NCBI GenBank assembly: GCA_011033025.1
Contig: WFMF01000480.1
Location: 62,001-126,000 of the forward strand
Length of the DNA stretch: 64,000 nt
DNA from: Beroe forskalii
Taxonomy: Eukaryota > Ctenophora > Nuda > Beroida > Beroidae
Direction: 5' to 3'
Below are positions 1,445 to 53,092 of this stretch, piece by piece (positions within the stretch are counted from its first letter, which is position 1; every line of letters begins with the position of its first letter). The notes under the pieces are model-generated. The model ran no database searches and was not told the DNA's origin. It saw only the letters and a program-made list of their open reading frames with translations. The position numbers and the translations under genes are program-made.

Positions 1445-1514
1445 AATAGGCGGCTAAGATGACGTCATTGTCAAGAGCTCAAGGTGGTGAGTTGATGACG
1501 TTAAACCACCTATT
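1445..1514. repeat. CRE foldback element, reference copy
   Basis: This 70-bp imperfect palindrome starts AATAGGCGG and ends CCACCTATT. The left arm holds the exact octamer TGACGTCA (1460-1467) and the right arm holds GATGACGTTAA. The centre reads AGAGCTCAAGGTGGTG. The same order of motifs recurs at many places in the window, so this is a repeat family and not a chance palindrome. TGACGTCA is the canonical CREB/ATF site. Any regulatory role is inference. The size and inverted ends would also fit a very short MITE. Confidence 0.75.
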
Positions 1515-2033
1515 CTTGTGACACTGCACCCTAAAAACCTCATCACCTATAAAATCAACTATTCTAGTGTTATTAAACAACATAGCCTAGTATTGCTTAA
1601 CGAACAAGGGCAGAAATAATTAACTGAAATAATATAAAATAAAATATTGAAGAAAACATAGTATATTTTCTTGAAAATATATAGACTCTATACTACAGCA
1701 GCTACTTGTTGTATTTATAAATATTTGAATTGGAGCAACCTTGTACGTTGACTTAGCTAATTGTTGAAAGAATAGGAAGAATAAACCGATGGTATTTTAC
1801 ATCGATATATATATAAATATTATGATAATATAAAATACGACATATGGCAACGTGGGCTCAACCTAATTTACAAGTCTACACCGACTGCGTTATGAGAAGC
1901 GCAGGAAAAGCGAACGGTTGAAAGTGGAATTGCTATGATGGTTTAGCATGGTCAATTGGTGACGTGATAGCCGGTTACCCGCTGACAAGTCTTGCTGGGC
2001 AATGGCGCTGAGTGTAGTGCTCACAAAACCAAA

Positions 2034-2064
<31 letters not shown>

Positions 2065-3929
2065 CCGCATATTGTGGCTATTAAACTTATCTAATTATAC
2101 TATAACATCTCATTGCATGGGTGTGTTTAGTCAGGTTTTAGTTTGGGATTGCATACGAGAAAGAGGGGGAGAAGACAGGCAAATTGCCATGATTAAGTCT
2201 GCCATTTTTGGGAGTTAGGCCAAATTATGCTGGAGTTCCGGATGAAAATTACGCGATTTACTGCTTCACTTGGTACACAATATAATGAGCAAACCTAACG
2301 CTTCTTACAGACTTTTTATTAGGAGATGCCCCTGTCTGCATGGAAATAATACAGATGCATTACAACAGTACACTCTAGACAAACAAACGACTGAGTGACA
2401 CTGATATCATGGGTTACAATAACCAGATAACCGTAACAATGGTCAGCGTAATAATCAGAAATTTCCTAGATCTAAACTAAACTATTTTTATATGCGTGGG
2501 TTATAACTAACCTCATACCGAAATAAAATAATATATAAATTCGATGGAGTAATATTAGATTCAATTCAATAGCATAAATAATCCAATATTATTTAAACAA
2601 TAAATCTATACAATTAATTAATAGAATATTCGCAGTAATAATCGGATTATCAATTAACGTAATCTGTAACAAATTAAAGAGCGGCGGTTATACGATGGTC
2701 ACATACACGAATCTGGGAGCTGGCAGAGATTAAAGTCTGTCCCAAGCAAATGAGCAGGCATGATTCATGGCTTTGTGTAGTATTAGTTTATTACAGCCAC
2801 GGCGATAAGTTCTGAAGAATTAATAATCCCCAAGCATGTTACTGTGTGCTACATCATGAGTAGGTACATGCAGATGAATCCCACACCAAGTAGGGTGGGT
2901 CGTACTGGGGCTCTTCAAGCAGATGGTAGTAGCACAGCAAGCCACTCTGAGGGCTTCCAGGGTGTTACAAGCAACACCAGCCTAGAAATGCCTGGTAGCA
3001 CCTGGTAGCGCATGGTGGTTCTGCGTCGAGACAATGCCTGCCTGGCTCCAAAATGTCAGTATGTTCTCCATAATATTATGAGAGATTTTAGGCGACTCAA
3101 AAACCAGCATATCAGGAGGATCTATAGATAAGATTGAAAGAATCTGTTTACATAAGAAGAACATAGGGCAACTCAGTTTTTCATGATAATGTAATAAGAA
3201 CAGACTTTTGTTGAGTGTATTTTAAGAAAAATCATCTTAAGGAAGCCTCAGCTGTTATTAATAAATCTCTTTATATTATACGTACCTTTCATCAAAAAGC
3301 ATATTAATATCTTTGCTTGTCAGCAAATCTAGTGCCTGCAGTTTCTCGAACTGAGAAATCGAAGCCATCTGACACGCAAAACAGGCTGCAGTTTTTATAA
3401 CGAGTCCATCGTATGATAATGAAGCTTGCTTTACATAAATATTAACAAGAAGTATGCAACACTGAGGATGAACTTTCAGCAGTGTTCTCTGGGCAGGGAT
3501 TTATTTCATTTCGAGGAAATTAATAAAATATACGAAAATACCAGCACAGAGGGAGGGAAGGAAGGGTAGTGAAAAAACGAACTTTTGAAGGTTTTCCAGG
3601 AAATTAATAAACTCGAAGCTTTGAAACGGATAAAAAATCCAAGTGCGAATCCGAAAGAACTGTCTGTGGAACTACTAGATTTAAGTTTTCAGCAAATCAA
3701 GTCAAGAGCTGTGCCCTGTGAACAATACTGAATATTTTTAAGCGATTCCCGATATGCCGTGCGAGTCTCAACTCAGTGCAGTTTATCATAAACTCACAAG
3801 TCAGTGAAATCCCTGCTTTTTAGCGTGACCCTGCAGAGTTTCACAAGTTGGGTGTGGCTCTGGAGTTTCACTTGATGAGGATGAAGAGCGATGAAAGGGA
3901 TGTCAGACAGAGTACAGGAGTTACAGAGC
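1515..3929. other. AT-rich intergenic DNA
   Basis: There is no supportable gene. It contains a CA microsatellite at 2031-2064 and a degenerate foldback fragment (GGTGACGTG) near 1961. The short open frames match nothing I recognise and have no repeated or conserved structure. Confidence 0.55.
2031..2064. repeat. (CA)n microsatellite
   Basis: An almost pure run of CA dinucleotides, interrupted by two T bases near its left end. Confidence 0.95.
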
Positions 3930-4003
3930 CAGGCAGTGGGAATGACGTCATTATCATAACTCAAAGTGAGAAGTTGATGACCTTGGTCAGCCTATCTTGC
4001 GCG
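3930..4003. repeat. CRE foldback element copy
   Basis: It contains AATGACGTCATTATCA, then an ACTCAAAGTGAGAAGTTGATGA centre and arm, and a CCTATCTTGCGCG right end. The order matches the copy at 1445. The left AATAGG terminus is decayed. Confidence 0.65.
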
Positions 4004-4366
4004 TTGAGTGCAGTAGATCATGAGTCCATCGTGCAGCACAGAACCTATTGTAACTACTCGCTGGAATACGATCTTACTTTGCAGTAGGACTATCATAACT
4101 TCATGAGATAGCAGTCACACCAGTCACAAATTGTAAGCAATTATGAAGTTTGATCTATAATTACTGATATTGCGCGATGTAGGTAGATGATTCAACGTAG
4201 TTCTCATACAAACAATTCATAGCGAATTTCTTGATCTCATCTTTAAAGTCAGGTTGATTTAGGAAATAGCATAGATTGAATAAAGTTTCTTTTGATTTTC
4301 ATTCAATTTCATGAAACAGGCCACAATGGAGAAAGTTGCAACTGCATTTTAACCTCGCGTGCGAAA

Positions 4367-4435
4367 AATAGGCGGTTCAACGTAATCAACTCACGACACT
4401 GGGTTGTGATAATGACATCATCTTAACTGCATATT
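4367..4435. repeat. CRE foldback element copy, reverse orientation
   Basis: It starts AATAGGCGGTTCAACG and ends TTAACTGCATATT. The right arm carries ATAATGACATCATC, one base away from the octamer. The 69-bp length and the arm pairing match the family. The left flank is GCGTGCGAA, similar to the GC-rich flanks of other copies. Confidence 0.75.
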
Positions 4436-4775
4436 GTGTTTCGTGTCAGTACATCATTTAATCTGTGCATGCATGCACAATGAATTTCATGCCTAATTTC
4501 TATCAAATCACACCTGCACTTACCACTCACTGTAATTATACTTATCGTAGTAACATATTCTAGTCACCAAACTGAACACAGCAAACAGAACATAGAGAAT
4601 ACTAATCCGACTCTCTTGTGGATGATAACTCATAATCAGATAATTGGAAACATGGTGTGAACCTTCGAACGCGGGCACACTTTTAGTATCAGAGTACTAG
4701 TATACTGATAAGTACGATTAGTTAAAAATCGGATTTCATGCTTGCAAAAACAAGAGAATATACTTTTGTCGAGCA

Positions 4776-4789
4776 GGGTCACGTGACCC
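4776..4789. promoter_or_regulatory. Perfect 14-bp E-box palindrome
   Basis: GGGTCACGTGACCC is a perfect palindrome centred on TCACGTGA, the site class bound by USF/MITF/TFE factors. GTCATGTGATC follows 3 bases later. With no gene nearby, function is only inferred. Confidence 0.4.
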
Positions 4790-5575
4790 GGAAGGTCATG
4801 TGATCCAAATCACCTGCTGGTGTACGGAGAATTATAACGTATGGACCAAGTCCTCTCAGTGGACGTGACATCATGTAACCTGGTCACGTGTGCTGCGGAC
4901 AGAACATTGCCTTCCATCCACTACACAGGATACAACTACCTACAGGAATACTGGATCTCTCGATCAAAACTCCTGGTCTCCTGGTATTATTCTTCAGTCC
5001 CAAGTATAGACGAGGGTTACTTTATCCCTGAGTAAGCTCCTGTAGAAGGGAGAGTACTAGATGAGAGGAGAGTATACCTTTGCAATTTTAGTTTTTAGTT
5101 CAATGGTTTGAAAACTGCACGAACCATATCGCAGTGGCAAGTAAAGACATCATAAGAATAATTTATGTTGAGTACGTTAAAATCTCATTAAGTAATCATG
5201 AAGCAAAAACAGCAATTTACTTTTTCAAAATTTCTTCAGGGGGATCGACAACTAATTGTCCCCCACCTGCCCACCGTGGTAAAATTTAAAGGAATTAAGG
5301 ACTGCAACTGTTCCCCCTGTTTGGGACCAAAGAGAATTGTAAGTTACATAAGTATAACATACGTAAAAGTAAAAAGTAAATTCACTGTGACGGTCGAGCC
5401 ACCAACAGCACTCTAAGATTACACACTCGCTAGTTCGATTCCCGGAAATACACAAAGAAGAACAGTCAAGCCACCACAATACCAGTACAACTACACAAAA
5501 AAACCGATAACGCCGCGGGGCGCGCACCTATGATTGAAGCGTGACCTCTCACAAGCGACCTACTCACCACTGTCG

Positions 5576-5592
5576 GTGTGTGTGTGTGTGTG
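5576..5592. repeat. (TG)n microsatellite
   Basis: A short pure run of about eight TG dinucleotides. Confidence 0.9.
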
Positions 5593-6355
5593 GGGAGACG
5601 CCGATACTTGTTTCTACACAGGAGGGGCTGCTTAGTAGTGGCAAGTCGGTGGTTGAAAACAATGTCATTATTATAGTTTAGAGCAACATCTTGATAGCGT
5701 GCTACAGGACTTTCGGTACTCCGGATTCCACAGAAAATAATGATTGTAAGGTCTACTATCACAATATCAACGTAAAATGAAAAGGAAGGTAGCGGAGCGC
5801 AATAATTCCAACACGCCATCTTTCATGCGTCATTGGTACAAAATATCAAACCCCGCATGCGAACAAAGCACTGCAGTGATTGATGTCACGGTCAGGGCAT
5901 ATCTCGGGGTTTCAGTGACGCACAGCTGCCTATTCTGTGATTTGGTAAGGAGGAGTAGAATTTGGTGAGGGATTTAGTGCGCAGTACATCGTCTCCCTCC
6001 CTCAAGTCGTAATGCAGGAGTAGTAGAGCTTCTCCTCTCGGCAGAAGAGAGACACAACATGAACTGTAGTACACTGAGGATAATAGGCAGGATCGGAGCT
6101 AGTGACGGTAGCATCATGTCTTGAAATGGGGGACTAAAAACATCGGACTGCCTATATATGGTACTTTCCTAAGAAATCCCTGAAGTCATGAGTTTACTCT
6201 AAGCCAGCAACAGGACTTGGGTAATATCCCACTAATACAATGTCGTGGGATGGAGCTCCTGAGCGAGCAGTAAATACACGCCCAGCGTGACCTTGGTAAC
6301 TATTGTTTGCAGTTTCTAAAGCTCTCAGCAATGTGCAATAATACCGTGCGCGTAG

Positions 6356-6426
6356 AAATAGGCGCTTCAACACCATCAACTTACTAAGAGTTGTTTTGGT
6401 AAGAACGAAATCTTAACCGCCTATTT
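6356..6426. repeat. CRE foldback element copy, ends intact
   Basis: It starts AAATAGGCGCTTCAACACCA and ends AATCTTAACCGCCTATTT, so the terminal repeats are the best preserved in the window. The internal CRE is decayed (AACGAAATC). Flanks are CGTGCGCGTAG and CTCG. The copy shows that the ends are conserved separately from the CRE core. Confidence 0.75.
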
Positions 6427-6635
6427 CTCGTTTGGGTGAAGCTGTAGACTCCATAAGAGTTTCCAACTACAGAGCACTAACTTTAGATAGGTATAATAAG
6501 TACTTCAGTTAAAGTTCATTCTTTTCCACTCTCTGTTTCAAGCTAAGTTCTCAAACTCTCATAATGATAAACAATAGCTACGATGCAGGTCGACCATTCA
6601 ACCAAGGACTATTTTACTGATGCACCCACAGGAGT

Positions 6636-6710
6636 AATAGGCAGTTGAGATGTCGTCATTATCATAGTGCCATAAAGTTAGTTGCCTAAGTTGAACTTGA
6701 ATCTCCTATT
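6636..6710. repeat. CRE foldback element copy
   Basis: It starts AATAGGCAGTTGAGATG and carries TCGTCATTATCA. It ends AATCTCCTATT, followed by TTTAGCGCGCG. It has the same orientation as the copy at 1445 and is about 75 bp long. Confidence 0.7.
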
Positions 6711-6850
6711 TTTAGCGCGCGGAAGTTTGTCATTTATACACCGTGGGTGGATTAGTTTTTGTGGTTGAAAGATGTTAATTGAAGAACCACCTAACAGGCA
6801 GCTTCCAGTGCTGAAGCAGTGTGTCCCAGGTTGTTCAGCGGTGGCGTGTC

Positions 6851-6918
6851 AATAGAGTTGAAGTGACGTCAGTACCATGCCCCAAAGTAGGAAGTTGAAG
6901 ACGTTAAACTGTTTCTCT
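6851..6918. repeat. CRE foldback element copy
   Basis: It starts AATAGAGTTGAAG and carries an exact TGACGTCA (6864-6871). It continues with GAAGTTGAAGACGTTAAACTG. The right terminus is decayed. Confidence 0.65.
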
Positions 6919-7111
6919 TTCATAGAGGCGGGGGCAGCAGTAGGGAGGCAGTAAAGTTACATTAGATAATACACTTACGATAAGGACTTTAAATAATGTT
7001 ACAGCGCTCAACAGTTACGTGACAACTGACAAGGGGAATTAGTGTCATTCAGATTCTACTTTCTACTGTACTATTGCAGAAGTAGTCGTCAGGCATCAGA
7101 TTACATGGGCT

Positions 7112-7377: not shown

Positions 7378-7929
7378 ACAGTGCTGCTTTAACTTTAAGA
7401 GAGGGAATTGGTAATTGAGGTGAGTATTGAGTAATTGAGAGGAGTAATTGAGGAGAGTAATTCAAGCATTGAGTGAAGTAAGGAGGGATAATATCACATA
7501 CCACCTACTGCCATTGACATAGAATACTATCTGACAATATTCTTGACAATTTCAGGAAACAATATATATTCTCGGGCGAGGCAGACGGTTAAAAGTTCCG
7601 TAGTATTTATGAGATTGAGTTGCGAGGGCAATGTCAGACGCCGAGCAGTAGCTAGCTCAGGGAAAGAGAGACAACTGATCACACTGCCACAGCAGACAGA
7701 ATATCGGTGGATTTACACTGCACTGTCCACACCCGGACCACAGGTGACCGGGGGTGACGTCACTGTCAGGGGATAAAGTGGCGCGTTGCTGACGCCAGGG
7801 AGTGTAGGACGAGCTCCGCGGATATCATTATAATATATAGATGCATTTCCGCGTGAGCCATTAAACCATTAGGAATATTATGAAATAAATAGGTGTCATT
7901 AATACATTCGTAGGAGCAGTGTACGAGTC
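7378..7929. other. Intergenic DNA with a CRE octamer
   Basis: Several short GAGTAATTGAG repeats lie at 7405-7475. An exact TGACGTCA lies at 7755-7762. I see no gene. Confidence 0.5.
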
Positions 7930-9510: not shown

Positions 9511-10175
9511 TAATAGTAACGAAATTTGGACAATGGACTGCTAATGCAGAACTCCATTCTTCCCGCGGCTTTAGTCATGATATTATATATAGCGACATAC
9601 GCAAAATCTTGATGACAAAACTCCAATTCCAAAAGAGTAAAGACTGACACGGTGTTGTTGTTACAAAATTGCTACAAAATCGTCAGGACGCACGCGCTAA
9701 ACTCCAGTCGACAGAAGCAGTAGAAGATCTCCATGAATTTTCCTAACTCAAATCTGAAATCCCTGTTGAAAGCATTAGGGGAAGTGCTCCGAATCAAACA
9801 CATACATAATGCGCGTTGGCGAGGATGACGCGTGTGGGTCGTAACACTAATAGCCGTTTCATTGCCGTCAATTGCCTGTTCTAAGCCGTGATATTGACGT
9901 AACTCCCAACCATTGCTACCTGGCTGGTGACTGCTGTGTGTGTTGCAAGTAATACGGCAGTACTGTCTCCAATATATTAGAATCGTATGGGAGGCGCTAT
10001 ATATTATGCCGGAGTCACGTTGTGACTGACTACCATGAAATTGCTGCTGAAATGTCCAATAAACTGTATTAATAAACCTAGGAATATTACACTAATTAAC
10101 ACGTTTTAGAAATCAAGCGCTTCAGTGAAAGTATCGAAATAGCTTGCTCATGTATGCGCCTAGTACTGCAACTCT
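9511..10175. other. Intergenic DNA
   Basis: AT-rich sequence without a recognised gene. GATGACGCG near 9823 is a possible remnant of the foldback family. Confidence 0.45.
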
Positions 10176-11095: not shown

Positions 11096-11676
11096 GACTG
11101 AACATACATCGCTTTTTGTTGAGCTAAACCTGAGGCTGAACCTCTGACAGTGATATCGTAGAATGCACTAATAGAGCACTAAAGTTGGGATCATGTCAAT
11201 TTGATATTGACCATCAGCTCGCACAGATTGGTGAATGTTATGTCTAGAATTTATGGGATCCAGGGGTGCTAAGCTAATAAACCTGCCTGCGATACTGTAG
11301 CCGCTGCAGACGTAACACACAAGAACCCGACCTGCCTGTTGACACGGATGTAACAAGCGTTGCTAGCCTTCAACCCTTGAGACATTTAGACAAATAGTTT
11401 ACAAAAACTCTGAATATAACACGCAGATAACAGCATAATGAATTAAATAATTTCTGAAAACCTATATTTACTCAATTTCTTAAGAGAATTTAATGTTTTA
11501 GAAAAAGAGGGGTAAGTAGATGTTTTGTAGTTATAGAATATACTATATGTCAAGAGACAAATCTAACCACTAAAAAGCAGGTTTTCTCGCGGCGCGAAAA
11601 TTTTTAGCATTCCACTGAAATTACAACGAACTATGTGATGAAAAGGAGGAAGTATATTATACCCCGTGTGGAGGAA

Positions 11677-11743
11677 ATAGTGAGGGAGTCGTCACTAGCA
11701 ACCCATGTTAAGTTATGATAATGCCGTCATCTCAACAAGAGGT
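11677..11743. repeat. CRE foldback element copy, degenerate
   Basis: AATAGTGAGGGAGTCGTCAC starts the copy. GATAATGCCGTCATCTCAAC forms the CRE arm with one base changed. Confidence 0.5.
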
Positions 11744-12711: not shown

Positions 12712-12789
12712 GTTTGATAGCTCAATGGCAGAGCATCCGAAATGTCTTCAGCTTCAGGAGGTTGTGGGTTCAAATCCCGCTCAGGTCCA
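12712..12789 (+). repeat. tRNA-like sequence, probable SINE head or tRNA pseudogene
   Basis: A D arm is visible (GCTC, loop AATGGCA, GAGC), as is a T arm with the B-box core GGGTTCAAATCCC. The acceptor side can pair TTTGA with TCAGG using wobble pairs. The anticodon region is 29 bases instead of about 22 and does not form a clean 5-bp stem. That argues for a tRNA-derived repeat or a pseudogene, and I do not assign an isotype. It lies inside the PIF-like transposon, so it was carried or inserted there. Confidence 0.55.
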
Positions 12790-13891
12790 ATATTGAACAG
12801 CTCATCTGAGTTTATGACTGCAGCAGGGCGCAGGCCGTTGTATTACTGAAATAGGTGAAGCACCCTGAATAAACCCTTCAAATCAGTGTGCACCCCAAGC
12901 ACCCTGAACGCACCCAGTGTACAGTCAGCAGTCTGGTAGGAGTCAGTGACCAGTCAGCAGCCTGGCATGAGCATCAAAATGTATCTATCGATGACCAGTC
13001 AGCAGTATGGTACGAGACAGTGCCCAGTGAGCATTTTCAGTCAAGCTGTCAATTCAAAACTGCATACATCATGCCAGTGAACAGCCAAGCTCGAAACAAA
13101 TTTCTAATACCATCGCAAAATGGAAACACTAAGTCAGTGCTGGCTTGCAAAACAACGCAGGGTCATGGTAGTTCCCGTCCCATCTTAAAATTTCCGATCT
13201 TAAAATGTGACTTCGAATCATACATCATCATCATGACTATACACAGCAATACAATCATTCGATACGCAGAATTAAAAAGCAAAGTGTACTGCAACTGCAA
13301 AACAGTATAAATCGTGTAGCACACAGGGCTCGAAGGGGCTGGCAAAGCCTATGTAGAGGACGAAAATTTTTAATGAACCGAATCAAAGCATGGATCAATC
13401 TCAAAGGTCTTGCAATCGAAAGATTATTGGCTGAAAATGTGTTGAGATGAAACACTAGCAATTTTGGAAGTACAAACGATAATTGGAAAACAAACAAAGG
13501 AGAAAATGAATTAATCTTGGTAGCATGTCACTTTGTAAAACGCCTCAGTTACAACAGAACTTGGAAAGAGATACAAAATGATGAAAGGAAATGGCTAAAA
13601 ATGAGCGAATTTACATTTGGTGAAACTCTGTTTTTGCAGCACAGTAATAATGAGACAAATGAGAATGACGTAATTACTATGGTTGAATATGGTATGTCAA
13701 TGACTTAAAGTGCCTATTTAACATTTCTCACGGGACAGTAATTGCACAATGTACCAAACTGCAAACCGGTAATTAGGCTACATTTACCGTCCGCTCCTTC
13801 GTGTGTGAGAAAAAGTAATACACCATTGTTACTAATGATAATGACGTATTGCTCTCACTCACTCTCAGTTATTGCTATTTCCGAAGAATGT

Positions 13892-16040: not shown

Positions 16041-16045
16041 TCAAA

Positions 16046-24560: not shown

Positions 24561-26379
24561 AGGGCAGTCGACCGTATCTTGCTTTGTGTGCACTGGGATG
24601 CTTCAGTAGTTTTTATGAGCCTAGTGCTTATTGTTTATGGTTCCATACGCTAATTCAACTGTCACACGACGAAGAAGTTTTCTGTATCACAATTTTCGGT
24701 AATTCGGTTATATAAATGGCATGAGTTGTTTAGAATCACCAACGTCATACAACAGGCAAAGGGCAAAATTTGGGTTCAATGACCAAAGAATCATCCATTT
24801 CTCTGCCGATTGTCTGCCACATTTAGCTTAACTGCACCTCTTTGGACACTGCGGCGCAGTCTCCGCTGCTTCATAATCATTAACTCGTCAATGGTTGGAA
24901 ATTTGGGAAGGATGTTAATAAGATATTAATCCCTGTTTCGGGCAGATGAGGGAAGCTGAAAAACACTAAAAAAGGAACTAAGTTGTTAACACTGAAAACT
25001 GATGTTATTGTAAACTGATATTTCTAAACTGAGATTTAAAAGAAAAATAATGATTGAGTAAACAAACTTATTATTCAGTTATTAAAGAAAAAAATAAAAT
25101 AATTCAGACGTCTTATCATTAATGGATTTATTTTAGCATTCCGTGACGATGATAATTAATGGACAGAATTTTTGTATAAATAATAATACCGACGAAAAGA
25201 TCAGTCAGCGAAAACTACGTGTTAAACCGACAGAGCACTGCACGGACTATAAAACTACAATGACCGAACATGACAATAAATTATTAGAATAATGAATTGT
25301 CAATTAACGTTATTAGGAAGAATAAGGGGAAGCGTACCATTAGTTTCTCAAGTTCTCAAGGCTTATTAACATAGCGAAGAGACGTTGTGTGAAAGTATTT
25401 CGCTGCCCACTGTAGAGCTACTTCCTACCCGAGAGTTATGCAGGGATTGTTAACACTGCCGGCCACGGGTTAAACACAGCTTCAACCAGGACGATATAAT
25501 ATTATCAGACGCAAAGCGGTGGTCGGCAGCTGCAGGCAGGCCACGTCACTAACGGAACATGTTAAACCCTGATAATGACGACACTCTCCGATGCTTGTTT
25601 TTTGTTCACGTCACGTAGTACAGAGCACGCAAAACCTATGTCCAGCCTCCTTACATCCTAGGTTTTCTCCCCAATCCAAGCTTCTTGAGGCCAATTATCT
25701 AAACACTCGACATATTTACATAGTTTAAAAGTTAATTTAAAGTTAATTTAATGCCATAATCCCTTTTAACAGTGACGAGTGAGAATGTTTGATTGCAATG
25801 CTGCGCACCTCGACTAATTGCTGCATGCAGTTGGTGGAAGTACACAGTCTTAAATAAAGTTTAGATAAGAATTTTTTCCGTGGAATACTGGAAACAGCAT
25901 ACTGCACTTCTTGTAGTAGTAGCCTCTACAGCTATTGCGACGTCGTCAATCAAGGGTACGCAAAAATTGCTTTAGATTTGCCATCTTTATGCTTCATTAT
26001 ATAACTAAATTCACGTAAATTTTTCGCGCTCGAGTTATAAAATCTCATAGCAAAGAAATCCCGGCAGCGAAGCGAGTGTAATGCGCTGGAAAGAGGAGCT
26101 CCGTTCGATGAAAAGTACCCCTGAAAAATGGGCGTTCCATTATCGTCAGTTGATCACCCTCCAATTTCGAAGGAGAATCGTGACGTCACCGCGCGCTGTA
26201 ATTGAAATACGCTAGACGGTAGACGGTTGCTCTATCATTAGGATACGACGATGGTGAACTCAAGGAGCCTTTACTACTCCGGCAGTAGCGTGGCGATCAT
26301 ATCTACAAATTATACCCTCTATCGGTCCTGTGTACATGGCTTTGACGAGGAAGCAGCTAAGTGAAGTTGTAATTCAGAA
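24561..26379. other. AT-rich intergenic DNA
   Basis: No gene is seen. Fragments of the CRE foldback family lie near 25548-25600 (CTGATAATGACGACAC) and at 26181-26188 (an exact TGACGTCA). The remainder is unremarkable. Confidence 0.5.
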
Positions 26380-26445
26380 GAAGGTGACGTCACTATCAAG
26401 GCTCAGGGTGGTGAATTGGTGGCGTCAATACTCGCATCTTCGTGT
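26380..26445. repeat. CRE foldback element copy
   Basis: AAGGTGACGTCACTATCAAG carries an exact octamer (26385-26392). The family centre GGCTCAGGGTGGTG follows, then AATTGGTGGCGTCAA and ATCTTCGTG. The orientation is the same as the copy at 1445. Confidence 0.7.
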
Positions 26446-26929
26446 TCGGGATGCACTGGATTTTACCGAGCAATGAAATTATAGAATATGCTCTCAAGTT
26501 TATATTCCTAGCATAATGAGCATTTCAGGGGGGTCGTTACTGTTACCAATTACCATTTAAAACTTGACGTAAAGCGAGGGATAGGATATTACAATTGTAA
26601 CTGCACTGCTCTTTTTATGATTATAAAGAAGGCCGGCCACAAATATTCCTTCAAAGGAACCTGTTTTGATTTAGGATATTCAAGTATTTCGAAGAGAAAT
26701 GAAACAGAAGAACGACCAAAAACAGCCTTACACTCGATGATATATCTGAATGGCGGAACCTCTCAAGGCTGAGCATAAGTTCAGTCCAACTGCAGGGGGA
26801 GTATAAACAATGAGCAATGGCGATTGCCTGGCAATATGTACCTACTACCTACTCCTAGTTACGGGAGTCTTGGATGCCACTAACTCCTACAGACAGGCTC
26901 TCAGGTGGACTCCGCCGGAGGAAAGCTCA

Positions 26930-26990
26930 GCGTTATCAACTCATCACTTTGTGCTCTGATAATGACGTCATAATAACGCCAAGTATCAAC
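26930..26990. repeat. CRE foldback element copy, reverse orientation
   Basis: CAACTCATCACTTTGTGCTC and GATAATGACGTCATAATAAC match the family in reverse. The exact octamer is at 26963-26970. Confidence 0.7.
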
Positions 26991-31733: not shown

Positions 31734-31786
31734 ACTACCGTCATCAGCGCCCCATTCTGCACTCTGATAATGACGTCACTCTCAGC
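31734..31786. repeat. CRE foldback element copy, reverse orientation
   Basis: ACCGTCATCAGCGCCCCATT is followed by CACTCTGATAATGACGTCAC, with the exact octamer at 31771-31778. Confidence 0.65.
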
Positions 31787-31991
31787 GGCTGGTTGCACGT
31801 GTGCAGGACCTGTAATACAGTACATGTACAGCACCGTAAAGACCGTAATGTCGGGGGCTGGAGCTTGTAGTGCGGGGCAGGTAATTGGGGTGAACTGCAA
31901 CACGCCATTATATCACGTTAAGTGGTGTAACTACAGGAATTACTGGATTATCAGTAGGAGATAAAACAGGAAACTGGGACCCTATAAGAGT

Positions 31992-34621: not shown

Positions 34622-36228
34622 AGGGATCCTGAAGTTTTGGGCGAGTTTCAAAAAATATCCATTTTATTATCTAAATCAAATCTCAAAACATAAACAAAAA
34701 GGTTGTTGAAAATCTGGCATTTCTATCACCTTCCAGTGTGCTAATATAGAGGTGCGAAGTTTTGTTGTGGTCGAGGGAGCTACGTCATCACGAGGCATGG
34801 TCAGAGTAGACTGCACACAGTAGTGTGAAAATACTGTGTTAAATACCTATCTCTACTATAACAGTAGGGACGTGTCAGTACCATACTACCATGCTTTTCA
34901 TGCTTTTTGCATCATGATTGCTAAAATTACGAATGCTATCATATTTTTTGATAATTCAGGATATATTATGATCAGCAGGGCAAAAACAGACATCAGCTTG
35001 GCATAGGTAAGTTTAGCTATGTATGGCTCGATTTCCTCATCTTCCATCATCTTATCATCTTCCCCTTTGTTTCAGAAGACGCTTGTTCATTTATTATCTC
35101 GTTTGACATTTCAACGTGTCGCTTGATTCTGAGCTCTAACCAAAGGATTCAAGTTACAAATGACACAGAACTAGGACGTAGGAACTAGGTATTAATAAGT
35201 TGATGGAAAATTAAGAACCTAAAAACTGCCAATTTACCTACTTTGCTTGATATGACAACTGATCAGTGATCATCCATTGCTTTCGGATTTCGTCTTCAAC
35301 CTACCATTGCGAGAAATTTGACGGTTGATTAGATACCGTCGGCTTCCTAACGGACTGGCAGCTCTACTCTGCCTGATGAACCTGGATCCTGGGGAGTGAA
35401 CGGGACTTGTTCTCATCCGCTGGGTTTCGGCCCATCCCCCTCTAAGAAGAAGATACTGTCGTTCGTCATACCGAGAATCGTTGAAGCCTCGGAATTCCAC
35501 ATAAAATTTAACACCAAGTTCTAACTATCTAAATAGAATGCACTTCTCTTTCAAATAGACTGGAACTTGAGATTTAGCATTTAAATCCAATTATAATACC
35601 GAAATCTTCCGTATCGTACGATATAGAAGTATATAAGCATAAAGAATCTCTATTATACTTCCGCAGTATCTCTATTATAGAAACTGCAAAAGGTTATATT
35701 AAAAAAGAGTAGAGTAAAGCTAGAAGAAAGCTAGAAGAGGAGGGCATGAGTTATTGCAATAGCTTCGAATCAATCAAGAGTTTGACGACACAATATGATT
35801 GTAATGGGACTCGGTGGGTCTTGACTGCAGATATCCAAAATGCATTTCAAGTCCCTTTCAAGTTTTTGTATTTTGATTACAGCTGTCGGAATTATTTACT
35901 AAGTAGCAGTCCAACTCCTCGCGCTCTGTTATTTACCACTCTAACCACAAGATACCTTTTAGTAAGGGAACAGTGCACCACTTTAAAGCGTGATAATGAT
36001 GCCACCTTGAAACGCCTATTCTCCATGCACAACCTATCTACTGCGGTTTGAGCGATCCCATGCCTCTTGATGACGTAGTAGCCATTTTACACCTCGTTGC
36101 GAATATGCTGTACATGCGCTATATTTACCATTTTAATGATCGGGATGTTTTTGTATTGGTAAAACTAAAGGTTTGCCGGGCAAATCATGGAAAAACAAAA
36201 TTTTCGATTTTTAAACTTCAGTGCCCCT
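34622..36228. mobile_element. piggyBac-like non-autonomous transposon
   Basis: TTAA flanks both ends (34618-34621 and 36229-36232). The termini are inverted copies: AGGGATCCTGAAGTTT at the left and AGGGGCACTGAAGTTT at the right, read inward. Longer subterminal pairing includes GCTACGTCATCACGAGGCATGG near 34779 against its counterpart near 36057. Unit B reads TTGA at the same point with no insertion, so the empty site is preserved. A TTAA duplication is the known mark of piggyBac elements. Frames of 76 and 101 codons inside show no transposase motif that I recognise. A third terminus lies at 63928. Confidence 0.85.
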
Positions 36229-37439
36229 TTAAAATGGAACAATTGAAAATAAAGCAATCTACATGATCAAGGCTCCAACCAAATTCAAAGATATGGTACT
36301 CAAATCACAATTCCCAAGATTTTTGACGTCGTGTGACGTGGGTGTCCACTGTCCTATCGTCTTTAGTGAGATTCTACCATGAAGTTACATTATAGCGACC
36401 TACAAAGGAAGTCAGATCTACTGGAACAAGGAACTGAAAATTTAGTTGGAATATTACGGCACTGCAATCGTCTGCGATATCTGAAGTATATGGTCACGGG
36501 CCGTCAGGACGAAAATAACTTTCTTATGTTTGAAAAATCAGCGCATCATGATCAATACATATAGATGATGGCCACACCAACCATCCAACACTTTCTATAG
36601 CAAGCGAAGTGGTCCGGAACTAATTCTTTAATGGCTCGGCTTGTGATTTCACCCCGATGCTAGGATAATATCAAGTAACATGTGCGGCGCTGAAGAAATG
36701 CTCGCTTGTGCGTCATTATTTCGCTATTCCAAACCCTGATTAGAGCGTCATACTAAGCCGGCTATTCCTGGCAGAGGTCACACAGTGTGGCGTGCCATTG
36801 GCTGATTCCCTGCCAATAGGAAGGCGCCTGGAAATGCCAGGGTAATGCCAGTAGTTATCTTAATTAAACAGTTTGTGTATATATACTATATAGAGCTGGG
36901 GAGTCTGAAGAATAAAACATGGAGCGAAGAACAAACCGGTGGGTCCAGGCTTCAGCGAAGGGAAATAGATAAGAAATAGATACGGAGGTCGGAGAGTAAA
37001 CATAGAACAGGGTATTCCCCTCAGAATTTCCATAATTAGTTCAATTAATTAAAGACATCATTCCTGTTTTGCTAAGTGGCTAAGATGAAAAGTATTATAA
37101 CCAAATTGAAGTTACAAACTACAAAGTTTGGGGGGGATCCACCGGCCAATGGCCATCGGCCAATTGGCCGAAATTGGAAATTTTTTAGACGGTTGGCCAG
37201 TTGGCCGTTTTTCTATTTTTGATATTTACGGCTCTTTAGGCTTTTAGGGGGGTCTGATCAAAAAACTCCCGGAGAGAAAGTTGCTTGCAATAGTTCTAAG
37301 AACACATCTGAGTACATTTGAAGACACTAATATCGAAATCGCAAAAAAAATGATATTAAAGATAATTTAGCTCATTTTAGTGCAGTCTAGTACTTTTAGC
37401 AACTCATAAACCAGGATCATCCTACTGTTAACATCTCAA

Positions 37440-39720: not shown

Positions 39721-40993
39721 AAGCAACACTTCTGGAACATGGCCATTGGGCCTCTTGCCATCCATAGAAAACTACATAGAAATTTAACAATTTAATCTTA
39801 ATCATCCACTGTGCAGGTTTGAATAACGTAAAATGGAAATTTCTCCACAAAAATAAAATATTCCTGTTTGAGTGAACTAAAGTTTGTTGTTAAACCTTCT
39901 AAAAATGCTCTGAGCTGCTGCTGCGAAAGTAACAGGGAAGAATGAGCAGTGCAATATCTGGTGCTGTGAACTGTGAAGTGTGATGTGGGTTGGAACCCGG
40001 AAGTGCAAAGTACATAATAAACATCATGTGCATATAAGACTAGTAAACGCAGAGAGGTCAGCAGTGACTGTAAAACCAGGAACTGTCATGTACTTGGTAT
40101 ATGAAGTGGGGACTTGTTTCATTCAGTTCGTGGAAGTGGTATCAGAGTCTCTGTAAGTGTAAAGAGACTCGCCTGATGGATATGCAATGCCTACTTCTGA
40201 GGGGTCCACACTCCACACTGTTATTTCCAACTGAAAACTTAGCGATGGAAGCTCATGGTATTGATGAAATAGATCCAGGTTGCGTTCCGGGTTTACAACT
40301 AAGATATGAATAAACTTACATGCCCAAGAGGAGAATATCAGCCTTTGAAATTTATCAAAATTCCAAGAATTAATCGACTGCAGACTGTGCTATCAATATT
40401 CTAATATATTACCTAGGTCTGCCAAGTACCTAACTGAAAATAACTTTACAGATACGCATCTACATATCTTAATGCGGCTTAAGTGCCAAGGCTTCAAAGG
40501 CTGTACCAGATAATTTAACCGTCAGCAATAATTCAGTATTTAGACAGACAAAATATAAAATTCAAACCAAGAAAGCAACGAATATAGTAAATTTGACAGC
40601 GTATTAAACGCCTTGTCGTAGTAACCACAATAATAATAGAATAGGAGGTGATGGTTGGCTGCCTTCCGTCCATGGAGTGAGTTGGAGCATGGCACCACCT
40701 CCACCTGACATGACATGTAGAAAACATGCCAACATAGGCTACTCGGAGGTGTAGGCGCTCACAACGTCAAACATTCGCTACTTTAAACTATGATGACGAC
40801 GTCTGCCATCCGCCTACCTGTCGTACGCGACAACTGCTGTATAGACTGTAATTTTCAAACAAAGATTTCAAACAAAAAACATAATCACGAACAACAACAA
40901 CAACAATAAATAATATAATGGTAGATACAAAAACGTGATCTAGATATGTCCTATGTCACAAAATTTGGAACAGGCATTTATTCATGAAATTAT

Positions 40994-42522: not shown

Positions 42523-42765
42523 TTGAATATGCGGTTGTATGCCAGTAAAACACCATTCTACAGCCTGATAATGCTACCATACTCAGCGATCAATAGTTCG
42601 TTCCAGCATGTGATGTACCCAGGGAAATATGAGAGAGAAAACTGCTTGAGAGATGTAAAGCAATTGCAACTTGAGCCAGTGATCCTGTCAGGGTCGCTAG
42701 TTCATGACAATAGCCTATCAAGGCGTGCTTATAAGGCGCGCTTACAACGCAAGCGGTTCAGGTAG
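42523..42765 (+). other. 80-codon open frame, unsupported
   Basis: The frame is shared with unit B (49031-49309). Most of the differences between the two copies change the residue (for example Tyr to Cys twice, Thr to Pro, Ile to Thr, Gly to Arg). By eye I count roughly nine replacement and four silent changes. That is what unconstrained sequence would show, so I do not call a gene. Confidence 0.6.
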
Positions 42766-44580: not shown

Positions 44581-45929
44581 GATCATCTGAGTTCCAGGTT
44601 GAGCCCCGAGATAGAAAGATAATATTAACTTATTTAAGTATTTGGATGGTAAACATTATTTTTACAGCGATCGCTGCGTACTTGAACTTTGACGCAGGCC
44701 TGCATCTGAATACTCCACGTTCCATGATATTGAAAAAAACAAACTAAATTGGATGCCACATCACGAACGTTAGGTGTTTCATGACATTGGTAAGGAACGT
44801 ATATATCCATACATCCATATGCCACGCACAAGCTATCAGTGGGAACGGTGGCATTATCATCACGGTAGCACAATGCATGATTCGAGCCTTGGTGCATCAT
44901 TCCTAGGAAAACTTCCTCAATAATTCTAGCATTATATGAGGAATCCTAATATGCTTTACAGGTATAATTGGTTATTAGAAGGTAGGGGTAAAAAGCACAA
45001 GCTCTAATCAAAATCTTGAAATGGACAATTCAAAATAAAGCAATCTACACAATCAAGGCTCCGACTAAATTCAGAGAAATGGTACTCAGATCACGATTCC
45101 CAAGATTTTTGACGTCGTGTGACGTGGGTGTCCACTGTCCTATCGTCTTTAGTGAGATTCTACCATGAAGTTACATTATAGCGACCCACAAAAGAACTCA
45201 GATCTACTGAAAAAAGGAACTGGAAATTTAGTTGGAATATTGCCGCACTAAAATCGACTGCAATATCTGAAGTATATGGTCACGGGCATTCAGGACGAAA
45301 ATAACTTTCTTATGCTTGAAAAATCAGCGCATCATGATCAATACATATAGATGATGGCCACATCTACCATCCAACACTTTCTATAACAAGCGAAGTGGTC
45401 CGGAACTAATTCTTTAATGGCTCGGCTTGTGATTTCACCCCGATGCTCGGATAATATCAAGTAACATGTGCGGCGCTTGAGAAGTGCTCGCTTGTGCGTC
45501 ATTGGTTCGCTATTCCCAACCCTGATAAGACCGTCATGCTGAGCCGGCTATTCCTGGCACAGGTCGCACAGTGTGGCGTGCCATTGGCTGATTCCCTGCC
45601 AATAGGAAGGCGCCTGGAAATGCCAGGGTAATGCCAGTAGTTATCTTAATTAAGCAGTTTGTGTATATTATATCGAGCTGGGGAGTCTGAAGAATAAAAC
45701 ATTGAGTGAAGAACAAACAGGTGGTTCCAGGCTTCAGCGAAGGGAAATAGATAAAAACTAGATACGGAGGTTGGAGAATACACATAGAACAGGGTATTCC
45801 ACTCAGAAATTCCACAATTAGTTGAATTAATTAAAGACATCACTCCTGTTTTGCTAAGTGGCTAAGATGAAAAGTATTATAACCCAATTGAAGTTACAAA
45901 GTTTCCAGGTATATCAATGTAATTTGTAA

Positions 45930-46202: not shown

Positions 46203-47525
46203 ACAAGCAACACTTCTGGAACATGGGCATTGGGCTTCTTGCCATCCATAGAAAAACCACATAGAAATTTAACAACATTCAATTCTAATCATCCACTCTG
46301 AACTTCTGTAGGGTTGAATGACGTAAAATGAAAATTTCTCCACAAAATTACAAAAACAAAATATTCCGATTTGAATGAACTCAAGTTTGTGTAACCTTCT
46401 AAAATGCTCTGAGCTGCTGTTGCGAAAGTAAGAAGGAAAAATGAGCAGTGTAATATCTGGTGCTCTGAAGTGTGACGTGTGATGTGGGTTGCAAGCGCAA
46501 AGTACATCATAAACATGTGCGTAAGACGAGTAAACGCAGTGAGGTCAGCAGTCACTTTCTCACTTTAAAACCAGAAACTGTCATATCTTGGTATATGAAG
46601 TGGGGAAAGGACTTGTTTCATTCAGGTCGTGGAAGTGGTATCAGGCCTCAGGGGTATCAGGGGTATCAGGGTCTCTGTAACTCTGTAAGTGTAAGACTCG
46701 CCTGATGGATATGCAAATTTACCTACTCGAGGAGGCTTCTGAGAGTCCAACCTGCTATTTGCCTATTTCCAACTGAAAACTTAGCGATGTTATTGATAAA
46801 ATAGATTCGGGTTGTGTTCCGGGTTTACAACGAGGATATGAATAAACTTACGTGCCCAAGAGGAGAATATTAGCCTTTGAAATTTATCAAAATTCCAAGA
46901 ATTAATTGACTGCAGACTGTGCTATCAATATTCTAATATATTACCTAGGTCTGCCAAGTACCTAACTGAAAATAACTTTACAGATACGCATCTACATATC
47001 TTAATGCGGCTTAAGTGCCAAGGCTTCAAAGGCTGTACCAGATAATTTAACCGTCAGCAATAATTCTGTATTAAGACAGACAAAATATAAAATTCAAACC
47101 AAGAAAGCAACGAATATAGTAAATTTGACAGCGTATTAAACGCCTTGTCGTAGTAACCACAATAATAATAGAATAGGAGGTGATGGTTGGCTGCCTTCCG
47201 TCCAAGGAGTGAGTTGGAGCATGGCACCACCTCCACCTGACATGGCATGTAGAAAACATGCCAACATAGGCTACTCGGAGGAGTAGGCGCTCACAATGTC
47301 ACACATTCGCTACTTTAAACTATGATGACGACGTCTGCCATCCGCCTACCTGTCGTAAGCGACAACTGCTGTATAGACTGTAATTCCCAAACAATGATTT
47401 CAAACAAAAAACATAATCACGAAAAACAACAACAACAATAAATAATATAATGGTAGATACAAAAACGTGATCTAGATATGTCCTATGTCACAAAATTTGG
47501 AACAGGCATTTATTCATGAAATTAT

Positions 47526-47634: not shown

Positions 47635-49393
47635 TGACACCGGTCCTTGATTTGCAGCTGCTACTTAACATGAAAACATATTTACATCGTGTAACTATAG
47701 GACCAATGCAAGCACTCACCTCGAAGATAGGCAAGCACTGCGAGATGCTGTTTTATTAAACAGATGAATTGATATTCAATTGCACTTTCACAAGCTCATC
47801 CAACGCTTAGAATGAGTTCTGGTCAGGAATTTTAAAATAGTTAGATATATGTTCTGGAAGCAACACGAGTACACCGAATATATCACATTAAATCTATCAT
47901 TTCGAGAGTTCTAACACAAAGTTTATCAGCTCTAACACAATAATTGCTAGTTTATCAGCTCTAACACAATAATTGCTAGTTTATAATCTCTAACATAATA
48001 ATTGTCAAAACAATTATTCGTAATGTCAAACACAATAAATGTTAGAATATTTATCAAAATATTAAGGACAAAAATATGCCTACAAGTTAGGAACGTAATC
48101 CCGATTTATGATTCCTGAAGATAATACCCCCACAGCCTCTAGATTCCTTGCTATGTTCATGAACATTGAACTTCTATACATGCGAGGAGACTGGAGCATT
48201 CTTCATATGCTGTTGCGCACTAGAAATTTTCTAATTTGAAAAGATGCAAAAAGGCCCCGCCCCTGGGATCACAACAAAGGCTGAGGCCAATTTACAGGAA
48301 TCAAATCTTACGAGTATATTGGCCTGAAAAATAAAGTACTAAAAAGCTAAACAATAAACTCGGTACCCGGAATGGGGAGGTTTTTGATTTACCGCTCTTT
48401 TGTAGTGTTAACCGACAGCTGCTCCCCATCACGACATTTTAAATCAAATGTGATTTATTGATCCCAACTTTAGACTTTTTGCCACAATGCCAATTACTGT
48501 GTCTCCGGCAAAAAACAAACTGCTAACACATGTCTAGAGCAAAATATCATGTAATCATGAAATAAACAACCCGCGCTACAGATGAAAGATGGGCTTGTCA
48601 CCAAGTAAATACTCATTACTCATCATGGCACCCCTAAAATCTCAAGTGTAAAGTGTTATGAGTTCTTTATCAGGTCCGGCAGTCATCTCCTATTTGCTTT
48701 ATAATTTCATATGATGCATTTAGAATTACAGTTTTTATGGTTGCGAGGAGAGTCCAGTGCCAAAACAATCTCAATTTCTAATGTTTGTAAACAATATCAG
48801 AATATCACCAAGCTTCACAGTGTACCAAGTGTAAAACACAACATAGGACAAAACACTATCCAGTAGGATGAACTAGAATTATAACTTCGCTACGTGTAAA
48901 AGGATCGGCTTGTCAGTACTCAGCATGTGTACTGCACCCTTCATCTTTTATCGGGTAACTTATTATTAGTCCCCTAATTGCTTTATATAATGGTAGCTAC
49001 GTAGGCATCACAACAGATACACGCAGCCACTTGAATATGCGGTTGTGTGCCAGTAAACCACCATTCTACAGCCTGATAATGCTACCATGCTCAGCGACCA
49101 ATAATTCGTTCCAGCATGTGATGTACCCAAGGAAATATGAGAGAGAAAACTGCTTGAGAGATATAAAGCAGTTGCAACTTGAGCCAGTGATCCTGTCAGG
49201 GTCGCTTGTTCATGACAATAGCCTATCAAGACGTGCTTACAAGGCGCGCTTACATAGCAAGCGGTTCAGGGAGCCCTCACTATCAGACCTTAAAATGGTG
49301 AATTGGTAACCTTAAATAGGTCATTGTTCCGGCTTCCCCGCGCGCAGCGTGCTTTTATCATGAGGCACTGTCACAATTCACAAGTTGCGCTCA

Positions 49394-49727: not shown

Positions 49728-49823
49728 GCAACAGTGCTGATCACTGTCTCTCACACATAGTGTCTCTCTGCGCTGCCACGCAGATAAAAGCAACCCACGT
49801 TAAGAAGGCGCTGCCGACGCCAT

Positions 49824-49865
49824 CACTTCACCACTCTGAAGAGATAGAATGACGTCACCTCCACC
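49824..49865. repeat. CRE foldback half copy
   Basis: CTTCACCACTCTGAAGAG is followed by AGAATGACGTCACC, with the exact octamer at 49850-49857. Confidence 0.5.
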
Positions 49866-50039
49866 ACCCACCACTCCTCCCTCGGAGTGTACACAAATTA
49901 TCAGGCTAACAAGGGAGCGTGACGTAAATCAGAGGAGACACACCATTAATAATATAGTCGCATATCAGATATTCAGATATACGTGTTGATCGATATGACC
50001 ATACCAGAGAGACCCCGTCAGCAGATGACAGGCCAGCTC

Positions 50040-50093
50040 GGAGAATGACGTCATTAGAAGGTTTAGAATGGTGAATTGATGATGCAGGTCCGC
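50040..50093. repeat. CRE foldback element copy
   Basis: AGAATGACGTCATTAGAAGG, with the exact octamer at 50046-50053, is followed by AGAATGGTGAATTGATGATG. The terminal AATAGG motifs are missing. Confidence 0.55.
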
Positions 50094-53092
50094 ACATTGT
50101 TGGCAGCAACTGCATGAAAGTGCGTGTGTATATGATCAATGCTCGAGTGTTGAGTACACATATCTTGTAACCCGATGGTATTTGGCTGTACCGAGGAACC
50201 CTGTGATTGCCTGATTACTTAATGACACAGAAAAAAGAGCAGTAAATCTCTGCAGCGTTATGAGTTCATCTGGGAGTAACATTCTAATTAGATAATCGGT
50301 CGGTAATTGGTATTTATTGATAGTGGATGTGAGACCTGTCATAGCATCTAAATAGAACGGTAAACTTCCAAAGTTTGTGAACATTCTTCGAGAGGAGGGT
50401 TTTTCCACATATTATGAGAAGTCTGGAGAACTCCCATTCCCCAATTGCCTCACTGTTAATTAACGCAAAGCGCTAAGAGAGTGAAAGGCCAAAGAGGGCA
50501 ATATTGCAATAATTGGGGAAATATTTCCCGAGAATAAACTGCATTGACAAGGTTGAAAGGGGACGCACTGGATCATGGAGCTCTGCTTGGTAGGGAAAAA
50601 GAAAACGCAGCAATGATAATATAAAAGATGACGAAGAGAAATAAAGAAAATAGAAAGTAGGACGATCGTTTGAAAAACGTAGAAGCTGCAGATCAGTAAC
50701 TATTTAACTCATCTCATCAACAATGATACAAGAAAATGCTCTGTAGCGAACGAATGAACGGCGAAAAAACTTTGAAAAAACAGAAAATGGAACAAGTGTC
50801 GTTCCATTTTCACAGTCAGCAAAATTCTAGAAAAGAAAATAAAAGATTCTACTTTTGTAACTCTTTCTCCCGACAATTTCAACTTTTCAATATTTTTTAT
50901 AAATTTTATCGAATATATAAGGCGTCGTAATGTTACAAGGTTAGAATTATCGTATCTTCATATTACGGGCAGGCCACGCAGTCTTATGAAATCAAGCAGG
51001 TAAAGTCTGGTAACATCTTTAGTTGGTCGGTGTAAGATGCAGTACCACCTGGTCATGATACCAGGTGATGGGCATTCCTCCCTTCGGTGTGATTGGGGGG
51101 AGGAAGTGACGTAATAACCACGCTACACAAGCACCAACTGATGACGTAAAGCTCTGGTTTTCACGTGCATGCTTCCGAGGATAGAGCATCGCAATTATGA
51201 GAAATATAACATTGTTAGTTCACACGAATGATAGAATCTGTAATGGGGTGAGGGCATCAGCCCACTTTTCCACTTAACGTACGTAAGTGGCTCTGTAGTT
51301 TCCCTTAGAACAGAGGAATCTGCAGTTAAGAAGCGAGCTGGGAAGTTTGATCTTAAAATACGCAATTCCGAGCTTGTGGTTTGCATAAAACATTCCGTTT
51401 TTTTGCGACAAAAATATGATAATGATAAGATGTATAGCTGCCTCCAACAATAGATCGATAGTACTTCGGATAAGAAGCTGACTCAACATGAATCGTGATG
51501 GCTTGCTCGTATCCATCTTTTGTTCGCTAGAACTTTAATAATATGCTTATTACTATCCATTGTTCTGAATTATATTTTAACGCAACTCCGCGCATAAATA
51601 ACATATATATCAGACGACCTTTTTCTTGTAGTTATAAGAGCTGGAATTGTCTTTAAAACGCATCAGTATAAACATGATGTAGGGCGCACTGAGCATGGTG
51701 GATTGCTGCGTCACCAACTCACCTTGCTAAACACAACACTGACGTCTCCTGCAAGTGCCGCACTCCGCACGCGCCGGAGACATCCCAAAGGAGGGATGCG
51801 GGATTTAAAATCTATACGTGCTCCGTTTAACACTCAGATATAACTTCAAAACGGAGTTACGATTAACATTATCAGTTGCCAGGAAAATAAGTTATGCAGC
51901 TAATATCGGAGTGCGCGTGAAAGTGGGTCAGCGCAGCGGTTGGTGCAGGATGCTGCGTACCTAGCCGGTCTTGTGTAAGCATACCATCCGGGCATCCTGT
52001 GGTCGGCTATCATGTTAAATGCACGATAAGAATGCAGGGAGCGCAGCCGAGCCTAGCTTTAAACTCTAACGGAGTTGGATTAAATGACACGCTAGTAAAT
52101 TAAATGCCGAAAAATTAAAAATATATCCGAAATTAGGATCTTTCATTTTACAAAACATATCATAGTACTCTATTCTTTTATTCCTCAGATGAATTATTTA
52201 AAATTTAGCTTCATATTATCTATATCACCCTTCACCATCACCATATTATCTACTTTTATGCTATGAAACCATTCAACTGACCTTCTACCTAGTGCCTATC
52301 TCCCATTGATTTACAATTTACATGAGCGAAAACATGACAGTTTGAATATATTCATAGAACAAATTACACTTTGAAATTATTACAATACGGCACAAATAAT
52401 AAAGACATTTTGTAACATCCAATCAAATCATAAGTAGCAGCTTTGTGCATAGAGCAGACCCGAGACCGTAATAATTCCTGAATAATGCGAGCTAATTCAC
52501 CATTGTTGTATGTTTTCAAACAGATCACTATAAAATCTCCTGACCAAACCTACTACGAACCTACCACGTCACAATTATAATTCATATTAATGCAGGAATA
52601 TTGCATCTGTTTTGATAATGGCTTATTCATTCTCCACGAAGCCAGGCAGTCTGCATTGTACCATATTAAATTCAATAGAAAAATCACTACGTCTCGATTC
52701 TCCAACAAATGCAGCGAGCTTTTGTGTTAATTTTGAAATGTTTTACAGAATTCATGAAGGACGGGTGAAAGGTGAAATTCTGTAATTTATATCCATGATT
52801 CAGCCAAATATAGAAATTTCTGTATAACAGATGTAATCAAAAAAAATGCAGGGTCAAATAATTTATTTATTTCAAATAAATAAACATGTGTGATCTATGA
52901 GAACCCGACAGTGAAGACTAGACACAGAATCATCAAGAAATGATGATTTCGCAATCTAAATTATATTCCAAGGAACTCGGGTAAAATTCTCTGAATTCCT
53001 ACAAAATGCAACGTAGGACAAGTTCCCTGTATCCCGAGCAAGATCACCTACAATATTCTAGCATTGAGCAGCAAACATGTTGTACCTACATG

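Follow-up and report, generated by a model that had tools for sequence, protein, structure and literature searches.

Transcription-factor sites borne by transposons are already known, and two systems come closest to the one described here. According to PMC9757741, the Caenorhabditis miniature inverted-repeat transposable elements (MITEs) CERP2 and CELE2 carry pairs of HIM-17 motifs and have spread thousands of binding sites for a single DNA-binding protein; these motifs show stronger conservation than the sequence around them and are bound by a transposase-related THAP protein, and their use in promoters has been shown. In the Brassicaceae, an E2F motif has been amplified by MITEs or transposons of several superfamilies (Henaff 2014, as described in PMC12595863). 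Here we analyse a stretch of 64,000 nucleotides from the ctenophore Beroe forskalii (contig WFMF01000480.1, positions 62,001 to 126,000 of the forward strand; ‘the window’) together with the genome (216 Mb in 1,134 contigs, window included), and describe a short, dispersed inverted-repeat element, family A, that carries the cAMP-response-element (CRE) octamer TGACGTCA. With confidence a little short of even, we read family A from these sequences as a TA-type MITE in which a 14-mer, TGACGTCATTATCA, has been kept by selection as a putative protein-binding site, for which a host bZIP protein would be the likeliest binder.

The likeness to CERP2 and CELE2 lies in paired motifs, found there in two related MITE families, and in a motif conserved above its neighbours; family A differs in its palindromic CRE joined to TTATCA, its apparently higher copy number and its tandem arrays, and is known here from sequence alone. 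With the Brassicaceae elements it has in common a single transcription-factor motif spread by transposons, whereas the motif and the host kingdom are different, a single small MITE family predominates and its best conserved parts include the motif. What sets this case apart from both is the CRE–GATA module, its tandem units and its occurrence in different transposons; no published report of family A was found in the open-access literature searched.

Tc1/mariner-type TA MITEs are small and high-copy, with CTCC/CAGT-type ends. These elements (Stowaway and similar) resemble family A in TA duplication, small size and high copy number, but family A has a different terminal sequence and no matching transposase was found for it in the searches described below. 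PHIS transposons make a TWA duplication, and ISL2EU elements 2-bp duplications. The PHIS group (PIF/Harbinger, ISL2EU, Spy, Pangu and Nuwa) shares with family A its terminal inverted repeats and a preference for particular short targets; the target duplications given in PMC4482050 are ANT, CWG or C|TNA|G.

Structure, target site and abundance of family A

The window holds 12 TGACGTCA octamers, the number given in the original prediction, against 0.88 expected, and none of 100 shuffles reaches 12; the predicted chance level of about one agrees with this, although the GC content assumed for it, 38%, is 41% in the window. Iterative profile searching of the window and the fetched loci recovers 20 non-overlapping family-A copies between positions 1435 and 49,861 (E ≤ 1e-3), where about 16 dispersed foldback copies had been predicted, and a search with a single consensus finds 9 (E ≤ 1e-4). 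A profile blind to the octamer, seeded with 80 end-ascertained rows of which one is a typed consensus, gives 14 window rows at E ≤ 0.01 (2 overlapping others) and, over the window plus 73 small octamer-picked loci, 47 rows; reversed sequences give none in either case. The copies occur in both orientations, as predicted, and those in the window are old and decayed. Three pairs (36687/45473, 40746/47278 and ~42747/49255) lie within duplicated stretches and are therefore older than the duplications, which bears out the claim that at least one copy predates the 34–49 kb duplication. The final 12 kb hold neither a family-A copy nor an octamer by profile and octamer scan, again as predicted: no profile match extends beyond 49,861, and no octamer lies beyond 50,053.

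The element is about 101 bp long, with a 97-bp CGCC...GGCG core, WA/TW ends and inverted ends of 23–25 bp. The layout AYTA|WACGCCGCGCGCGAGAAATAGGCGG...CCGCCTATTTCTCGCGCGCGGCGTW|TART emerges from 51 full, oriented copies together with the flank columns of 50. One arm carries TGACGTCATTATCA and the opposite arm the half-site TTGATGACG, matching the predicted pairing of a CRE arm with a half-CRE arm, and the octamer is placed subterminally rather than in the element ends. The prediction had taken AATAGGCGGTT as the ends of an element of about 70 bp; the true ends lie outside this sequence. The prediction also had the four best copies sharing these ends, but the window has no more than two exact matches to AATAGGCGGTT, at 4367–4377 (+) and 6415–6425 (−). 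The GC-rich flanks noted beside the arms are present, but belong to the outer terminal repeat.

The preferred insertion site is AYTART, and TA adjoins the ends, on either side, in 45–46 of the 51 oriented copies. We looked for a target-site duplication, as the prediction had proposed, at empty paralogs of two insertions. For one insertion, which lies within a repeat (L072), six aligned empty paralogs hold TA once. For the other (L073) there are 51 matches, of which 30 run across the junction; one of these is 25/25 and ungapped, and TA is again present once; homology on the left reaches 11–19 bases only. The duplication is therefore TA. Flank pairing hinted at the duplication of a single base (W, second in the flank), with 27 concordant against 11 discordant among 44 pairs. 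We discount it on two grounds: a permutation test on 50 pairs showed no more than 28 against 22.5, a value matched in 13 of 400 shuffles, and the empty sites lack an extra W. Three-base duplications of the PHIS type (TWA, ANT, CWG, TNA, the last in the form C|TNA|G) are ruled out by empty sites that hold TA only. Among lengths of 2 to 9 in 22 copies, no longer duplication stood out. The strongest of 144 single-position flank tests (z 3.0, 1 of 400 shuffles) joins the unmatched positions 2 and 5 and is taken as chance, and a local search for empty sites returned only self-matches of repeated elements and a weak 29-base match between L032 and L082 (E 6e-4). At the filled L072 site (C174, near 117,700), 19 extra bases in the left flank and 6 in the right, relative to the six empty paralogs, are perhaps the footprint of an earlier excision.

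Family A is short, non-coding, dispersed in both orientations and high-copy, with terminal inverted repeats, as MITEs are, and has the TA duplication of Tc1/mariner elements; it is almost certainly a TA-type MITE. A structured RNA gene or a tRNA-derived short interspersed nuclear element was rejected, as no Rfam match falls at the copies and the sole window match at the gathering threshold lies outside them. The 97-mer has no match in plasmid records, and an 18-mer of the end has none in viral contigs. Among 53 exact ends there was no autonomous partner element: 49 have their partner end within 130 bp, and two of those without one (L173 and L186) look on reading like broken copies. The genome has at least 5 matches to DDE_3 and at least 22 to DDE_1, which we take to be Tc1-type and pogo-type transposases, respectively; family-A ends were not found in the partial flanks of one Tc1-type and two pogo-type genes.

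Genome-wide there are 30,002 TGACGTCA octamers, compared with 7,048 for the reversed control and with about 3,000 expected by scaling from the window, which leaves about 27,000 above that chance level. The 14-mer has 7,719 exact matches (3 in the control) and AATAGGCGGTT has 2,073 (43 in the reversed control). Both inner ends occur in perfect form, 36–64 bp apart, at 116 places, and the 23-bp outer end with at most 2 mismatches at 676, with none in the control in either case. The share of octamers that belong to family A, taken with the fraction of copies whose octamer is intact, leads to an estimate, not a count, of roughly 15,000–35,000 copies. Family A is both old and high-copy.

Conservation of the octamer and its neighbours

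In a leave-out scan, each 8-bp window was masked in turn, copies were found without that window and the masked bases were scored. The scan covered 191,692 bases (the window plus the flanks of fetched copies), and its seeds include octamer-picked copies, so it is not perfectly unbiased. Identity peaks at GACGTCATTATCA, with 0.82–0.85 and 34–44% exact 8-mers; it is 0.70–0.73 at GTTGATGACG (up to 18% exact) and 0.53–0.58 in the loop (0–5% exact).

A set of young copies was picked by one outer end only (70 copies, of which 55 are collinear and were retained). In these 55, the octamer has changed at 14 of 440 positions, compared with 44 of 605 in the loop after removal of four subfamily columns (p = 0.004) and 31 of 330 in the spacer; the whole loop diverges by 18%, and the octamer is intact in 45 copies. 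CpG transitions number 1 of 110 in the octamer and 63 of 476 in the outer repeats at ends unused for picking (p = 2.5e-5). Within the same 191,692 bases, and among 8-mers present in at least 10 bins, TGACGTCA ranks first in enrichment once CG microsatellites are set aside, occurring in 43 500-base bins against 2.5 expected (17-fold). Most of the next 20 are pieces of family A, and 8-mers of the terminal repeat are less enriched than the octamer.

The octamer decays less than loop and spacer, by the leave-out scan and in the young copies alike. This was the comparison that the original prediction had asked for, and on both points offered for its refutation the opposite was found: the copies have common ends, and the octamer does not decay like its neighbours in loop and spacer. 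The prediction had named one alternative, a MITE with the octamer in its ends by chance. Its first part holds, with TA at the empty sites; the octamer, however, is subterminal, and because it is better conserved than loop and spacer, a chance inclusion is unlikely. The protected unit is not the octamer alone but the 14-mer, in which the CRE is joined to a GATA-like TTATCA (presumably a GATA-type site on the opposite strand). This block is very probably constrained.

Octamers beyond family A and competing explanations

To the 12 octamers of the window we added 100 listed from the 30,002, all on contig C1. At a clustering threshold of 24, which none of 6,216 shuffled pairs reaches, 55 of these 112 fall into one cluster and 10 into another, and the rest form small groups and 27 singletons; from their members, printed at thresholds 21 and 26, the two large clusters are read as family A and a second family, C. 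The family-A cluster takes 7 of the 12 window octamers, and one more (7755) pairs with a genomic copy at threshold 26. With the octamer-blind profile, 26 of the 100 sampled octamers are assigned at E ≤ 0.01 and 44 at E ≤ 10; for the window the figures are 4 and 7 of 12.

Family C, defined from three complete copies on C1 (L132, L095 and L158), is 239–356 bp long, with GGTNNSTCTCCCATRTAAACGG ends and telomere-like (TTAGGG-like) inner repeats. It has two octamers near its ends, the first 29–44 bases in, and all three copies are flanked by 8-bp duplications (CTTTTATT, AAACTTTG and GGATTTGT). It carries a 17-bp stretch, TGACGTCATTGTCATAG, one base off the family-A sequence TGACGTCATTATCATAG; the module points outward in family C and inward in family A. 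A C-like variant with undefined ends (L219) matches family A exactly over this stretch.

There are 3,752 pairs of octamers no more than 40 bp apart, against 539 in the control. Among 50 listed places, the spacing is 35 bp in 19, 11 bp in 10, 22 bp in 7 and 36 bp in 6. The core unit of family A, TGACGTCATTATCA...GAATTGA, is 35–36 bp long and is multiplied in tandem; one locus (L215, C1:1189080-1189520) holds seven units, each about 36 bp long, that stem from this core. At C1:761623-761652 and at L159 there are 11-bp tandem CRE arrays, TGACGTCATAATGACGTCA, with octamers about one helical turn apart, and in the flank of L080 another inverted repeat, GCGTATTAGTAATCCGCCGGGC, surrounds an octamer.

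We favour a host factor as follows. The 14-mer would be a protein-binding site kept by selection, bound by a host bZIP protein (CREB/ATF-type), perhaps with a GATA factor on TTATCA. The bound factor could make the element accessible or active in germ-line cells; this may help family A to amplify, and amplification would put candidate CRE sites at thousands of places. The CRE palindrome suggests a bZIP protein. In favour of a host factor is the presence of the module in elements with unlike ends, orientation and lengths of duplication; the 30,002 octamers, the tandem CRE units and the octamers of several repeat families at 11-, 22- and 35-bp spacings point the same way. On motif and distribution, we slightly favour a host bZIP over a transposase as the putative binder, at about even confidence. 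A wider version, in which several unrelated small transposons converged on or traded the CRE(–GATA) module and were licensed by a germ-line host bZIP factor, seems rather unlikely, though it may yet apply.

Several observations weigh against selection on a host-bound site. In the leave-out scan, identity over the octamer itself is 0.76 (17 of 44 exact), below the 0.82–0.85 of the windows just past its first base, and the inner terminal repeat AATAGGCG scores 0.80 (8 of 15 exact, 53%). In the young copies, this repeat has 4 of 110 CpG transitions at ends unused for picking, and the excess of transitions in the half-site over the octamer (7 of 110 against 1 of 110, p = 0.065) is weak by itself. 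The inner terminal repeat is thus about as protected as the octamer block, and the palindromic TGACGTCA, conserved above loop and spacer, is roughly equal to it. In the young subfamily the right-arm octamer has decayed to a half-site, and part of the conservation comes from shared source copies, not from selection after insertion. Family C may have captured its module from family A, since the common sequence extends past the octamer. Finally, paired arms beside terminal repeats are equally the normal layout of transposase sites. It is quite possible, if not probable, that the 14-mer and its half-site partner are subterminal sites of the MITE’s own transposase and that the likeness to a CRE is coincidental. 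The conserved blocks (the inner terminal repeat, ACGTCATTATCA and the inverted ACGTCATCAAC on the other arm) are arranged as such sites usually are, and the remaining interior is far less conserved. Recognition of ends, however, has no need of tandem CRE arrays, and would not account for octamers in repeat families with other ends and spacings, among them family C with its 8-bp duplications and opposite orientation; nor did the 53 exact ends and the partial flanks of three transposase genes yield a matching transposase.

High copy number alone yields a large octamer count, and the young copies have a common recent source, so the octamer might be a functionless part of a recently amplified element. 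We consider this improbable: in those same young copies its decay falls below that of the loop and far below that of the outer-end CpGs, older, diverged copies recovered with the scored window masked still have it where their loops differ, and its 17-fold enrichment exceeds that of the terminal-repeat 8-mers. A second copy set is similar in octamer retention, but was octamer-picked. Least probable is that the octamer is a general feature of the genome, in host promoters or satellites, with the MITE incidental. About half of the sampled octamers do lie outside the largest cluster, including the 27 singletons, the octamer-blind profile claims a minority even at its looser threshold, and 11-bp CRE arrays exist outside family A; yet no other single source contributes as much to the sample as family A, the cluster of 10 is a transposon, and several smaller groups recur at two or more places and hence are repeats too.

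Copies and other features of the window

On the forward strand, both the full and the octamer-blind profiles find copies at 1435–1517 (octamer 1460–1467, right-arm half-site TTGATGACGTT; profile E 4e-16), 3931–4004 (octamer 3943–3950), 6625–6722 (GC-rich outer end GCGCGCGG, octamer decayed to TGTCGTCA) and 6857–6923 (octamer 6864–6871). On the reverse strand, both find the top-scoring copy in the window, 4352–4444 (E 9.5e-19), which holds the exact AATAGGCGGTT at 4367 and a decayed octamer that reads TGACATCA on the + strand, as well as copies at 6343–6433 (exact end 6415–6425, octamer lost) and 26927–26977 (octamer 26963–26970). Profile and clustering together support a copy at 31737–31806 (−; octamer 31771–31778) and a diverged one at 26382–26435 (+; octamer 26385–26392). 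Other diverged copies were found by the profile at 9848–9911 (−; E 4e-5), 11661–11736 (−; E 2e-6), 13661–13720 (+; E 3e-6, a composition-biased match with bias 5.6), 25543–25604 (−; E 5e-5), 35971–36030 (−; E 3e-6) and 49796–49861 (−; octamer 49850–49857). By profile and duplication alignment, the copies at 36687–36771 (−) and 40746–40829 (−) predate the duplication and have duplicates at 45473–45560 (−) and 47278–47361 (−), respectively, and a diverged copy at 49255–49329 (+) has its counterpart, common to the duplication, near 42747. The octamer at 7755–7762 (+) lies in a diverged relative and pairs with the genomic copy L101; that at 50046–50053 (+), from octamer scan and clustering, lies in a diverged family-A core.

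Ten open reading frames of the window have no Pfam match above the cut-off and one sub-threshold match. At 59.8–62.9 kb, a stretch of about 1 kb is duplicated at 87% identity and has repeated open frames, KTPLTEMSARAILRARVTMVTRTNR, two of which have no Pfam match. A tRNA-like Rfam match at 12715–12783 (32.6 bits, cut-off 29) was not found by ARAGORN and is perhaps a tRNA-derived repeat. Minisatellites, mostly with 15–60-bp units, occupy 7.9–8.3, 9.2–9.5, 10.2–11.1, 16.9–17.6, 23.7–24.5, 32.9–33.5, 42.9–44.6, 49.4–49.7 and 54.3–55.1 kb. An APBB (Fe65)-like PTB domain is encoded near one family-A copy.

A CRE-centred module is among the best kept parts of a 100-bp mobile element, in old and young copies alike, with its CpG nearly free of transitions. 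Family A may have scattered thousands of potential gene switches, and the excess of about 27,000 octamers offers a natural experiment on whether selfish elements make use of host factors for their spread and rewire regulation. Were the module indeed licensed by the host, the genome would hold perfect CREs at about 30,000 sites, some of them multiplied into tandem arrays with a 35-bp period or in helical phase, and cAMP-type gene control may have been rewired.

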